A stretch of 64,000 nt of DNA from Pseudomonas mandelii (GTDB lineage: Bacteria > Pseudomonadota > Gammaproteobacteria > Pseudomonadales > Pseudomonadaceae), in NCBI RefSeq assembly GCF_024138395.1, contig NZ_JAMYDU010000002.1, forward strand, positions 248,001-312,000. Direction: 5' to 3'. The notes beneath the pieces are model-generated. The model was not told the DNA's origin, did no database searches, and was given only the letters and a program-made list of their open reading frames with translations. The translations under genes were made by a program, and so were the position numbers. Shown piece after piece: positions 38,175 to 43,534 of this stretch (the first letter of the stretch is position 1; every line of letters starts with the position of its first letter).

Positions 38175-38555
38175 CTACGCCTTAGCCCGATACTCCGCCG
38201 GATTCGGCGAATCAATATGATCCAGCGCTCGCTCCACCATCAACTGCACCCCATCCGCCAATCTGCTGAGCGCCAGGGCGACTGAGCGGCGAGTGCCGTC
38301 GATGTCGTCAGCCAGGTCGGCGGCGATGGCGCTAATGGACTTCAGGTCTTCTGAGGCGTTGGCCAGGAGGGCTTCGGTGTCGATGTCGGGGGAGACGGTG
38401 AAGAGTTTGCCTTTGCGCTTGGGTTTTTCGTTGGGTGGTGGGGCGAAATGGTGGTTGAGGGCGCGTTCGGCGGCTTCGTGGAGTTTTTTTGAATCGAAGG
38501 ATTCGTAGGGGGATGTGGCTTCGTTTTCAGGAGGATTTGGTGTTGGCTTGAACAT
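38175..38555 (-). CDS. DUF6124 family protein
   Basis: 126 residues from the ATG whose complement ends at 38555 (MFKPTPNPPENEATSPYES). I know this as a small soluble family frequent in Pseudomonas, often several copies per genome, without known function. Helical body: KKLHEAAERALNHHF, then DIDTEALLANASEDLKSI, ALALSRLADGVQLMVERALDH. The frame stays open 71 codons further upstream through a palindromic leader, but the MFKPTP start is the conserved one. A decayed relative lies at 3995-4110. Confidence 0.75.
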   Translation of the reverse strand: MFKPTPNPPENEATSPYESFDSKKLHEAAERALNHHFAPPPNEKPKRKGKLFTVSPDIDTEALLANASEDLKSISAIAADLADDIDGTRRSVALALSRLADGVQLMVERALDHIDSPNPAEYRAKA

Positions 38556-38818
38556 AGATGTAATCCCGTACTTAAGGAGCCGACACCGTTTCGCTTGCGC
38601 TTCGAAAGTGGTGGCAGCTGTGCATAGGTGTGCAAGACCGGCGGGATTACCCGGCAGACCCGAAGGTCTCCCATACACAGCAGCCATAACGGTTCGCGAG
38701 CATAGGAAAATGCTCGATGAATTGCCATAACCATTGTGTATCCCGCCGGACTTGCACGTCCGTGTCACCGATTTTGCGGTGACGAACAGAGGTTATCGGT
38801 GCAGCCGAGGGCTGCCTA
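38556..38818 (-). promoter_or_regulatory. Palindrome-rich leader of the DUF6124 gene
   Basis: Read on the minus strand this leader can fold extensively. An 18-bp near-perfect inverted repeat (38630-38647 with 38740-38757, one mismatch) encloses a nested ATACACA/TGTGTAT pair and small hairpins GACC-cgaa-GGTC and GAGCAT-aggaaa-ATGCTC. Outside it are GTCACCG/CGGTGAC and GCAGCC-gag-GGCTGC. Two frames are open through it, which probably reflects conserved structure rather than protein. From memory similar leaders precede DUF6124-type genes in other Pseudomonas; the role is unknown. Confidence 0.55.
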
Positions 38819-38935
38819 GTTCACGAACAGCCCCACGTGTTGAAGGAAATGTCCGATGGAGTCGAGGGTAGAAAGACCAAAATATCTTCGCTTTTAAACA
38901 GCCGTGTTTCGTCAATGACTTGGTAGTCATCAGCG

Positions 38936-38969
38936 TCAAAAAGCGCAGCATCTTCTTCTAACGCTGCGC
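38936..38969 (-). terminator. Minus-strand hairpin with T-run
   Basis: On the minus strand GCGCAGC / GCTGCGC arms with a 13-nt loop are followed by TTTTT. It lies upstream of the DUF6124 leader and would stop minus-strand transcription entering from the SCP2 side. Confidence 0.4.
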
Positions 38970-39038: not shown

Positions 39039-39422
39039 ATGAAATTTCGTTTTCTTCTGTGGATGCTGGGTTTGTTGATGGGTAAGGCCAGTCGGACTAA
39101 TCCTGCGTTTCAGCAGCAGTTGGGTGACAAGGAGCTTGTTTTCCAATTACAGACCCTGGATGGGAAAGTGGCGCGGCATTTCTTTGTGAAGGATCAGCGC
39201 ATTACCAGCAAGTCCGGCGTGTATGCCGAGCCTGCGTTTGCGATTGCGTTCAAGGATGCGGCGTATGGCTTTGCCACGATGCAGGCGAAGAACAAGCAGT
39301 TGGCGTTTATGCAGGGGATTCAGGACAAGTCGATTCAGATCAAGGGGAATCCGGCGTTGGTGATCTGGTTTCAGGGGTTGACTAAGTATTTGAAGCCTAG
39401 GAAAGCTAAGCCTAAGGCTTGA
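39039..39422 (+). CDS. SCP2-like sterol/lipid-binding domain protein
   Basis: 127 residues from the ATG at 39039 (GAGG 9 nt upstream). SCP2-like fold: ELVFQLQTLDGKVARHFFV, KSGVYAEPAFAIAFKDAAYG, KGNPALVIWFQGLTKYLKP, basic C-terminus. The short hydrophobic start may be a membrane-associating helix. A second, 5'-truncated copy of the last two thirds lies at 43284-43534 on the far side of the phosphoesterase-NTPase gene, so this copy may be a mosaic of old and incoming sequence. Confidence 0.7.
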   Translation: MKFRFLLWMLGLLMGKASRTNPAFQQQLGDKELVFQLQTLDGKVARHFFVKDQRITSKSGVYAEPAFAIAFKDAAYGFATMQAKNKQLAFMQGIQDKSIQIKGNPALVIWFQGLTKYLKPRKAKPKA

Positions 39423-39695: not shown

Positions 39696-42600
39696 CTAGG
39701 TGATGTCGTGCTCTTCGAGATTGGTTGCGCGCTTTTCATCTATATGCTGTAGAAATTTTCCTTTCAACATTGATCGTTCATTATTCGACGATCCACGGAG
39801 AACGTTAAATGCATCCCCTATACAGTCCCTTATCGCATCTAATGAACTAGTTGGTGCTTCAAAATAGTACAAGCTCAAGAGTCTGATAAAGATTGCTTGC
39901 GTGACAATATTGTTGCTTCCAGATTCTTTAAGTAGTTTTCGTATCGCTTGTATGCTGTGCTTGTTTAAGTTTTCTATAGTCAGCATTGTGGAAAGGAAGC
40001 TAATACATTGGCTTGAATTTTTCGTTTCAGTTAAAATGAAAGTTTCAAGTTTTGGAGTGGCTAAAGATTCCGCCATTAATGAAGAGATTAATTGCGGGAT
40101 CATTAGTTTTATGAAGTTCTTAAACTGGCCTGGAGTTAGCGATCCAAATTGTGCTGGTAGTTCATCTGGAAACTCTTTCGGATCTGTTTCATGTAGGTAA
40201 TTGGTTGTTGAAACGATGATTTTTGACCAAAGGGTCAACACATCATTTAGACAGGACCTCTTCAGCTCAATGTCATCGATGAGTTCGCTATTTCTTAGTA
40301 TGTTTGAATATGCTTTCAATGCACCAATAAAATGCATATTGGTTGACAGTGGGGCAGCCGGATGCCTTTGTCTCGCATGGTCATGATCAATAGATGCTTT
40401 CGATGGAACCTCTGTTTCTTCAATAAATTTCGTTCTGTCGTTGTCATTAACCGGTATATTTAAAAAGTCGTCCTCAATTTTAGTAAGGGTTTCCTCTTGG
40501 TTAAAAACACCCAGTTCTTTTCCGTGAGTCTCAAATAGCGATATATCAATTTCAAATTCGGATGAGATCAATAATTGATGGCAGCACTCTTTCGCCATAA
40601 TAAGAATGTCTTTTCGATCTCGATGCAGGCCTGTAAGTAAGTCGAGTTCGGTTGTGTATTTTGCGATTGAAATTGGCGTTAGAACCTTTGCTAAGGCCTC
40701 TTTGCTATCTGCAAGTTTATTTGCTAGAAAAAAGGCCCTAAAGCAGTCAAATTTAAAAGTGATTTTTTGATTGCTTTCATACAGCAATCCTTTCCTTAGG
40801 AGTTCCTCCGTAAATCCCCGTGATGGATCAGCGAGACCCCGTTTTTTAAAATAAGATGAAACAAATATCTCAAACTCGTTTGAATTTATCCATTCCACGC
40901 TTACCTCATCCATAGCTGTAGAAAGCTCGGAGAGAAAATGCGATTGGATGTTCGAGTCATAGTTCGAGCGAGATTTTGATTCTGTAAATTTTTCCAATAG
41001 GCCGAAAATTAACGCCTCTATGGCTGATGCTTGATTTATAAGCTTTGCTGAAGGCTGCTGCTCTATTACCCAAAGGAGTATGGAAACCAAAAATGGTGTT
41101 TGTGGTACATTTAATTTGGACAGTAATTTTTTTACAAGAGCAAATTTTTCTTCAGAGTTTTGATCGTGCTCACCGAACCATTTTCGTACCAGTTCTTTAG
41201 TTTGTTTTCTCTTGAATGAGTGTATGTATATAGGGGTCGGGTTTTTGCTTAATGAAGGTAATTTTTCAAGGCTTAGATCATCTTGTACCTCTTCGTTTGT
41301 AGCCAATATATAGCGTGGAGCAGGGTATTTGTCTCTAAATTCTTCAATTATTTTTCGATGTGCTGCATTATGAATGTTGAAGCTGTCAAAGATAACAAGT
41401 GCTTCACCATTCTCTAATAAGCTGATCAAATCCCTCTTGGTAATTTCATTTCCTATGAACTCAATCGCTTGAGTGAGAATGGCTGCGATAGTTAACTTGG
41501 GAAGTACTGTTATGTCAATTAAGAGGCCTATCCTTGCATTGCCATGAAATTCCATGAAGCGGTTAACAGCAATGTGATTAAGCAAGGTTGATTTGCCTGA
41601 TTCTCTTTTTCCAATAAACATAATGTCTATTTTTTCTTGGGATAAGCTGTGCAGACTTACAAAATCATCGGTGCCATTTGTATCTAAGCTTTCGCTCGCG
41701 GAAAGATTTTTTTCGCTTTTTTTGGCAAGAGGGGGTTCAACAAAGATTGATGATAAATGTTTAGGGGCGATATCAGAAGCTGAAAAAGATAGAAGCTTAG
41801 AGTTAGCTTTTTCTAAAGCTGCATTTATTGCGGTACTAGAAATTGAGGTTTTTGACACGCCATTGTTTTTCGATATGTTAAACTCAAATACGCCATTTTC
41901 AGCGAACCTTGGAGATATATCAAACACATTTCGCTGGCTGTAGTACTCTCGCGCTTCTATTCGCCACGTATTATTTTCATTACAAATATCTATGATGGAG
42001 TAGCCGTTATAGTGATCTCTGCTTTCATAAATGCATCCTGTATTGCTAATAAATAGATTTCCTAGTGTCGACGTTGTGTGGCCTGCATTGTTATCATGGT
42101 TGTGGCCGCATAGTAAAGCGTCGAAGTTCGTGGCTAGCACTCTTTGTATTCTGTTTTTTTCGTCGGGTGCAAGCCAGTCTAAAGTATGGTGCATTAGGGC
42201 AATTTTTATATCGCAATCACGTATTCCCTCTAGTGCGAGCTCAATCTGCCGTTCGCCTACGTATAAATTGTTTCTATCTTTACTTCCTCCGCCGCTGGTC
42301 CGCCAAGTACTGTTTAGTGAAGCTACTCCTATTTTTATAGGATCAATTTTGAAGGCTTTTGTAGTAAAAAGTATATTTTCTTGATACGTTGATGAGTCTA
42401 TTTTTTTTGAGAGCTCGATATAACCATCTAAGTGTCCCCAAATAGCGTTATTGCCTTTATTAAGCAAGTTGTCAACTAGCTTGTTTGCGTCTTCAGAGTT
42501 TTTTACGTTGGAGAATATAGACTCGTATATTTCTTCTCTGGCTTTTAGATTTATGTCGTGATTTCCTGGGCAGCAAAGAAATTCTACTGCCGAGTTGGCT

Positions 42601-42809
42601 GCGTTGAGTATTTTCCTTATTACTGTCTCTTGGGCCTGTATCGCAGTTTTGGAGGTGTCGCCTCTGTTGGCGATATCCCCGGTGCATAATATCGCATCAA
42701 TTTTCTTTTTCTTATTTTCTGCCGTTATATCTTCGCATAACGCCGCTATTGTGCGGGCGTGATCGGCACTGTTAGTTATGTGTAAGTCGGAAATATGTAG
42801 GATTCGCAT
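39696..42809 (-). CDS. Calcineurin-like phosphoesterase fused to STAND/NACHT-like NTPase (probable defence protein)
   Basis: 1037 residues; the ATG at 42809 has AAGGGA 7 nt upstream. Residues 1-290 are a complete metallophosphoesterase: D8-x-H10, G44-D45, GNHD 82-85, H207/H208 and GHNHD 235-239. After a low-complexity linker (about 300-390) a P-loop GKRESGKST (400-408) opens an NTPase with Walker-B-like LVIFDSF (471-477) and a helical region typical of STAND/NACHT proteins. The remaining 450 residues are helical with no recognised repeat and may be the sensor. In bacteria such architectures (nuclease or phosphoesterase effector, NTPase, C-terminal sensor) are characteristic of anti-phage NLR-like proteins. 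AT-rich codon use and flanking duplications mark it as acquired. Confidence 0.8.
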   Translation of the reverse strand: MRILHISDLHITNSADHARTIAALCEDITAENKKKKIDAILCTGDIANRGDTSKTAIQAQETVIRKILNAANSAVEFLCCPGNHDINLKAREEIYESIFSNVKNSEDANKLVDNLLNKGNNAIWGHLDGYIELSKKIDSSTYQENILFTTKAFKIDPIKIGVASLNSTWRTSGGGSKDRNNLYVGERQIELALEGIRDCDIKIALMHHTLDWLAPDEKNRIQRVLATNFDALLCGHNHDNNAGHTTSTLGNLFISNTGCIYESRDHYNGYSIIDICNENNTWRIEAREYYSQRNVFDISPRFAENGVFEFNISKNNGVSKTSISSTAINAALEKANSKLLSFSASDIAPKHLSSIFVEPPLAKKSEKNLSASESLDTNGTDDFVSLHSLSQEKIDIMFIGKRESGKSTLLNHIAVNRFMEFHGNARIGLLIDITVLPKLTIAAILTQAIEFIGNEITKRDLISLLENGEALVIFDSFNIHNAAHRKIIEEFRDKYPAPRYILATNEEVQDDLSLEKLPSLSKNPTPIYIHSFKRKQTKELVRKWFGEHDQNSEEKFALVKKLLSKLNVPQTPFLVSILLWVIEQQPSAKLINQASAIEALIFGLLEKFTESKSRSNYDSNIQSHFLSELSTAMDEVSVEWINSNEFEIFVSSYFKKRGLADPSRGFTEELLRKGLLYESNQKITFKFDCFRAFFLANKLADSKEALAKVLTPISIAKYTTELDLLTGLHRDRKDILIMAKECCHQLLISSEFEIDISLFETHGKELGVFNQEETLTKIEDDFLNIPVNDNDRTKFIEETEVPSKASIDHDHARQRHPAAPLSTNMHFIGALKAYSNILRNSELIDDIELKRSCLNDVLTLWSKIIVSTTNYLHETDPKEFPDELPAQFGSLTPGQFKNFIKLMIPQLISSLMAESLATPKLETFILTETKNSSQCISFLSTMLTIENLNKHSIQAIRKLLKESGSNNIVTQAIFIRLLSLYYFEAPTSSLDAIRDCIGDAFNVLRGSSNNERSMLKGKFLQHIDEKRATNLEEHDIT

Positions 42810-43283: not shown

Positions 43284-43534
43284 GACGCGCATTTCTTTGT
43301 GCGGGACCACCGCATTACCAGCAAGGCTGGCGTGTATGCGGAGCCGGCGTTTGCGATTGCGTTTAAGGATGCGCGTATGGTTTTGCCACGATGCAGGCGA
43401 AGAACAAGCAGTTGGCGTTTATGACGGGGATTCAGGACAAGTCGATTCAGATCAAGGGCAACCCGGCGCTGGTGATCTGGTTTCAGGGGTTGACCAAGTA
43501 TTTGAAGCCGCGGAAGGCCAAGCCGAAGGCATAG
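43284..43534 (+). pseudogene. 5'-truncated, frameshifted SCP2-like gene copy
   Basis: Aligns closely with 39173-39422: HFFVRDHRITSKAGVYAEPAFAIAFKDA, then a missing G near 43374 shifts the frame, and the rest (MQAKNKQLAFM, KGNPALVIWFQGLTKYLKP) continues in another frame to the stop at 43534. The first 45 codons are absent. Similarity extends about 40 bp past the stop. This is the displaced 3' part of the original gene or a duplicated fragment. Confidence 0.75.

Follow-up and report, generated by a model that had tools for sequence, protein, structure and literature searches.

The closest described system is the C4 antisense RNA of phages P1 and P7 (RF01695, immI operon). According to the available portions of PMC5320573, b' of the phage RNA acts over a ribosome-binding site and a' provides specificity. 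The C4 motif is listed in Weinberg 2010 (PMC2864571, in its available sections), and the same portions of PMC5320573 report 21 chromosomal C4-like RNAs in A. baumannii that are expressed and seem to undergo processing at GG; C4 is thus a known RNA family. Going by these sources as far as they are available, what is known of chromosomal C4s amounts to predictions and, for Acinetobacter, to abundant RNAs whose targets are left open there. While the family and its chromosomal expansion in Acinetobacter are already known, neither the assignment of DUF6124 as a target nor a near-orthogonal C4 set was found in open-licence full texts, and neither was any mention of DUF6124. In the available portions of such texts, a link of C4 to DUF6124 or DUF3077 was likewise not found, and DUF3077 appears in one paper, on P. 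putida resequencing, without mention of C4 there.

Here we describe a C4 unit in the window, which is the whole stretch of 64,000 nucleotides of Pseudomonas mandelii DNA that was analyzed. The leader lies on the minus strand and has the four-site layout of the phage P1/P7 C4. The C4 RNA itself spans 38607–38691 and scores 62.6 bits with the RF01695 covariance model, above the gathering cut-off of 45; an outer stem is followed by a first hairpin, a second hairpin with loop b', and then segment a', and the stems are paired on the 35 paralogues of the window genome. Upstream, at 38743–38796, lie the a1/b1 hairpins, the upstream target of C4, which share with the c4-a1b1 motif (RF03163) the arrangement of two hairpins upstream of C4, but score 38.5 bits against a cut-off of 46.7. 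Complementarity between a1/b1 and C4 extends across 18 nt: the target arm (38740–38757) comprises a1 (38751–38757) and b1 (38740–38749), and the antisense arm facing it within C4 (38630–38647) comprises a' (38630–38636) and part of b'. These arms are 94% complementary and 92 nt apart. Downstream, the a2 region (38587–38607) directly adjoins C4 on the 3' side and forms 5 contiguous pairs with a', and b2 (38560–38568), the Shine–Dalgarno region of the next gene, forms a 9-nt inverted repeat of 100% complementarity with a part of loop b' (38642–38650). The gene itself (38178–38555, minus strand, ATG at 38553–38555), the putative target of C4, encodes a DUF6124 protein of 126 aa (PF19619, 92.4 bits, cut-off 27).

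The window shares with the P1/P7 system, as described in the available portions of PMC5320573 and as generally understood, the three-stem fold, a' and b', the upstream a1/b1, the placement of a2/b2 on the ribosome-binding site of the following gene, and a GG at the foot of the stem. It differs in the controlled gene, icd/ant in the phages and DUF6124 in the window, so that the locus is not an immunity operon of the P1/P7 type, in which C4 controls ant; it also differs in that the window genome holds tens of copies, most of them own-coded. The Group 1 C4-like sRNAs of A. baumannii are likewise chromosomal and multicopy, with variable antisense segments; their targets are open in the available portions of PMC5320573, whereas here matching a2/b2 segments are present in the adjacent gene.

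A preliminary description of this leader had noted strong structure, an 18-bp inverted repeat and two frames open throughout, and had proposed a conserved RNA or a palindromic DNA element rather than protein. The strong structure is borne out: the minus strand from 38540 to 38830 folds with -122.2 kcal/mol where shuffles average -91.0 (z -5.8; 0/200 shuffles as good), and the plus strand (38556–38830) folds more weakly (z -3.8; 1/200 shuffles). Two frames do stay open in the window copy, reaching 237 and 209 nt upstream of the ATG. The 18-nt repeat also exists, but its arms are the antisense segments (a', b') of C4 and their upstream target (a1, b1), and they constitute neither a hairpin nor a DNA palindrome.

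The C4 fold is conserved across the 35 paralogues: 97.3% of cells are paired, both partners have changed in 16 of the 26 pairs, 0 of 500 shuffles attains any of the five measures, and GG occupies the stem base in 35/35 copies. Slid versions of the structure are 35–44% paired, a control biased in favor of the structure because the latter was taken from the same alignment. In named Pseudomonas genomes, C4 precedes 71 of 80 related DUF6124 loci. The leader is thus a conserved RNA shared by multicopy DUF6124 genes, as had been suggested, and substitutions preserve pairing both in the stems and in the antisense/target segments. What was found is a known, phage-derived antisense RNA family rather than a new cis-regulatory motif.

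The window genome contains 35 C4 matches, all above the cut-off, and 29 DUF6124 domains, 21 with C4 upstream within 900 nt (one decayed unit included) and 8 without. Among the other 14 C4 copies, 3 stand before DUF3077-type genes (2 by Pfam, 1 by alignment) and 9 before small genes without a Pfam family (4 scanned, the rest by alignment). Just one of the 35, L011 (G000:C12:350464-350550), precedes a Bro-N gene, which also matches phage antirepressor families and is a possible link to a phage ancestor. In profile comparisons, DUF6124 is related to DUF3077 (84%, E 7.2e-6); the unnamed small genes have a weak link to DUF3077 (10%, E 0.003) and none to DUF6124 (0.3%). Behind the C4 of L009 (G000:C76:217848), the last of the 14, there is a frame of 38 codons from ATG, and behind that of L010 (C23:439053) one of 32 codons from ATG, followed by a DUF3077-like gene, which recalls the icd-ant overlap in P1. 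In the decayed unit, L032 (G000:C1:658402-658488), C4 leads straight into a DUF6124 remnant.

Pairing of a' and b' with the target segments was compared using a home-made score, the start codons for target segments (own copies, relatives and two further genomes) being set by a rule. Over the 35 copies, the mean self and cross scores were 20.6 and 12.1 for b'-b2, 17.7 and 11.0 for a'-a2, 20.5 and 14.6 for a'-a1, and 20.6 and 15.1 for b'-b1, and own pairing beat shuffled assignments in all four tests (0/10000 each). By duplex energy, the own upstream and downstream regions were also better than shuffles (0/10000 each), and on energy alone the own region came first in 20/35 cases upstream and 6/35 downstream. 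For the sum of a'-a2 and b'-b2, the comparison of own and foreign pairs covered 34 copies, omitting L032: the own target was best for 32/34 C4s, the own C4 was best for 29/34 targets, and 15 of 1122 foreign pairs reached at least 90% of the cognate score. The two further genomes, for which only C4s beside DUF6124 domains were scored and identical loops were merged (35 to 34 in one), gave the own target as best in 33/35 and 29/34 (0/10000 shuffles), with 28/1190 and 25/1122 foreign pairs at or above the same 90% level. There are groups of copies that share a' codes, and the C4s of L012 and L043 match several foreign targets. In the window copy, b' pairs with b2 at all 9 of 9 positions across the ribosome-binding site and comes first among 35 in either direction; a'-a2, for which the own target ranks 6 of 35, is its weakest element. 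Judged by these scores, most copies appear to carry their own a/b code, so that most C4s match well only their own gene, and the C4–target pairs of the window genome form what looks like a nearly orthogonal set.

Four related genomes that share the neighbor gene differ from the window in b', and the targets of b' follow. In relative G005, b' is TCCGATATG, and b1 and b2 both carry CATATCG; in G011 and G019, b' is CCTGGA and CCTGAA, matched by TCCAGG and TTCAGG in b2, while b1 is identical in the two and makes a G-U pair with b' in G011. Across the four genomes a' and a1 are constant, and a2 varies slightly without a' following. When the 71 C4-bearing related loci were merged to 56 distinct combinations, own pairing exceeded all 5000 shuffles in each of four tests; it was the best pairing for only 18 to 28 of the 56 combinations because many rows are closely related. 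Relative G016 of the four-genome comparison and L245 of the 71-locus set seem to be one record. Among the relatives read, some have no C4 unit beside the same SCP2-like gene; for the mobile unit that the preliminary description had also suggested, neither unit ends nor a transposase turned up in a cursory look.

We propose, with considerable confidence, that the leader is a C4-type antisense module from which C4 is excised to repress translation of the DUF6124 gene that it precedes. A single transcript would probably begin just before or at a1 and run through a1/b1, C4, a2/b2 and DUF6124, and the C4 hairpin would then be excised, probably by RNase P cutting on the 5' side of the stem-base GG, by analogy with P1/P7. 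Free C4 would bind the mRNA of its own gene in two places: a' to a2 just 3' of C4, and b' over the Shine–Dalgarno region b2. The latter contact would block translation and perhaps lead to early termination, with a' adding specificity to the action of b'. The a1/b1 hairpins could be a second target, or a decoy that keeps C4 inactive in the uncut precursor. A possible -10 hexamer at 38790–38795 follows a TA...T pattern common to the paralogues just before a1 (anchored alignment, 35 paralogues); this hexamer falls within the 5' end of the RF03163 match, so it may just as well belong to the RNA, and a scan with the sigma-70 consensus returned no promoter site. Several classes of shared sequence occur about 40–90 nt before a1 in the 35 own loci, for example GGCTACA...CCTTGCGCC or GGA.ATTTCCTTCAA, which are possibly regulator sites.

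More broadly, we lean cautiously towards a reading in which chromosomes of this Pseudomonas group carry a large, nearly orthogonal antisense/target set kin to the phage immunity RNA (about 35 pairs here, and at least 54 C4 matches in another genome), with a small DUF6124- or DUF3077-type gene silenced in the antirepressor slot of most pairs, and loop and targets re-coded jointly as copies diverge. Chromosomal C4 RNAs would then have a concrete candidate target, the adjacent DUF6124-type gene, and the multicopy DUF6124 family would gain a defined mode of regulation and a link to the phage antirepressor slot. The near-orthogonal set would represent a natural experiment on how the specificity of an antisense RNA shifts jointly with that of its separate targets and, if the reading is true, a naturally occurring collection of RNA switches insulated from one another.

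The DUF6124 protein is retained, as judged by dN/dS values of 0.09–0.20 against 8 close relatives (8 of 10 rows kept, two of them from one genome; L191 and L192 were discarded for a codon indel that put them out of register). An AlphaFold model predicts a helical hairpin with modest confidence (pLDDT 74.3, pTM 0.43, 19 sequences), for which Foldseek returned no PDB match at E ≤ 0.001; DUF6124 gave no match in PADLOC at E ≤ 0.01 and none over a cut-off in NCBIfam. Type I toxin–antitoxin systems consist of an antisense RNA beside a small gene and are multicopy, as are the present units; here, in contrast, the C4 antisense lies on the same strand as the gene, upstream and within the leader. We regard it as unlikely that DUF6124 is harmful when made and that C4 serves as its antisense antidote. 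The C4-controlled genes of P1 do include icd, a host cell division inhibitor (PMC8198154, available portions), and over three genomes (113 copies) an intact-frame test was passed by 82/94 copies with C4 and 8/19 without (Fisher 6.9e-5). However, of the three genomes taken singly, only that of the window shows a clear difference (p 0.0004, against 0.27 and 0.054 in the other two), and the test errs in both groups as judged by eye: copies that fail yet look intact include the C4-less L086 and L318 and several with C4, such as L296, L298, L334 and L338. Since plain decay of whole units would produce the pattern too, a toxin is not claimed. Moreover, the DUF6124 frame is open in all nine of the 80 related loci that have no C4 match, three of them in the same arrangement, so C4 is not indispensable. 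By eye, one of these nine has the 3' half of C4, six have a1b1 alone and two lack both; among the 8 C4-less DUF6124 copies of the window genome, 5 keep an a1b1 match, 3 of them over the cut-off. L086, L287 and L318 are DUF6124 genes without C4 that encode a similar, distinct protein, and a PrrF RNA match adjoins the gene at L086. In G019, pairs of closely spaced DUF6124 domains stand behind a single C4 match (L300/L321, L301/L334, L314/L316 and L297/L338).

More doubtful is a cis-acting attenuator, in which no free C4 is made and a signal decides, within the same molecule, between the a1b1:C4 helix and the C4 fold. Such a toggle would be consistent with the minimum-energy fold of the window leader, which includes a long a1b1:C4 helix and has a predicted advantage of 11.1 kcal/mol over the fold with the C4 stem forced. 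Over the 35 copies, however, the median cost of forcing this stem is 1.3 kcal/mol, and the predicted full-leader fold keeps it in 13; the stem covariation and the invariant GG fit an excised C4, and P1/P7 precursors are substrates of RNase P (PMC5320573, available portions). For the proposed excision of C4, the cost of its stem in the window copy and its retention in only 13/35 leader folds mean that C4 might stay locked with a1/b1, and release may need co-transcriptional folding and cleavage; alternatively, the helix with a1/b1 may represent a genuine off-state. Work by Hartmann in 1995 is said, by its title, to concern P1/P7 C4 precursors as RNase P substrates.

It is similarly improbable that the chromosomal C4s act mainly as an anti-phage or anti-satellite shield that silences incoming phages with matching targets, DUF6124 being secondary. 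C4 functions in heteroimmunity and superinfection immunity in P1/P7 (PMC12197685 and PMC5320573, available portions), such a role has been proposed for the Acinetobacter copies (PMC5320573, available portions), and one paralogue (L011) precedes a Bro-N gene; but among the C4s and targets of the window genome the strongest matches found are those of each copy to its own gene, and with the protein of one paralogue as query a DUF6124 relative was found in 1 of 50,697 phage records. A query with one paralogue's DUF6124 protein gave no match in plasmid records. One scan of viral contigs yielded 33 loci, 30 with C4 upstream within about 700 nt, and many of these loci are close to contig ends and may be host flanks. 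Finally, despite the inverted repeats and the two open frames, a palindromic DNA element or an upstream peptide is extremely improbable, as compensatory changes are seen in the stems and in the antisense/target pairs, and the gene frame continues upstream past C4 in 18/35 paralogues and past a1b1 too in 5/35, which indicates, on comparative grounds, a non-coding leader.

Within the genus, C4 exceeds the cut-off in 53 of 59 sampled genomes, with a median of at least 17 and a maximum of at least 54 matches per genome, and DUF6124 is present in 47; the two counts correlate with rho 0.88, the C4 counts being lower bounds. C4 occurs in 12/229 genomes of the class and 44/293 of the order, the own genome included in each, copy numbers again being lower bounds. 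Outside the genus, at least 22 of 40 C4 loci have a listed frame starting 47–58 nt after C4, with two listed frames considered per locus. Ten proteins encoded downstream of these C4s were picked by hand: seven had matches over the cut-off, four of them to Bro-N, two to phage Rha and one to KilA-N; two more matched Bro-N below it, and one had no match. The seven of ten is not a rate, because most of the proteins were picked for their likeness to antirepressors; the matches indicate that elsewhere a phage regulator can occupy the position behind C4, which here mostly goes to DUF6124.

In the neighborhood of the unit, the interval separating the leader from the SCP2-like gene contains a terminator-like hairpin with a T run (38943–38969, minus strand); the region has 2 such sites against 1.6 expected. 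Farther upstream, the minus strand at 39699–42809 encodes a calcineurin-like phosphoesterase of 1037 aa with an nSTAND NTPase match, and this product matches the candidate defence model PDC-S60 over nearly its whole length. The 3' part of the SCP2-like gene occurs twice, at 39176–39418 and 43289–43530 (89–92% identical), flanking the candidate defence gene, and the duplication may be the trace of an insertion that carried a copy of the gene end with it.
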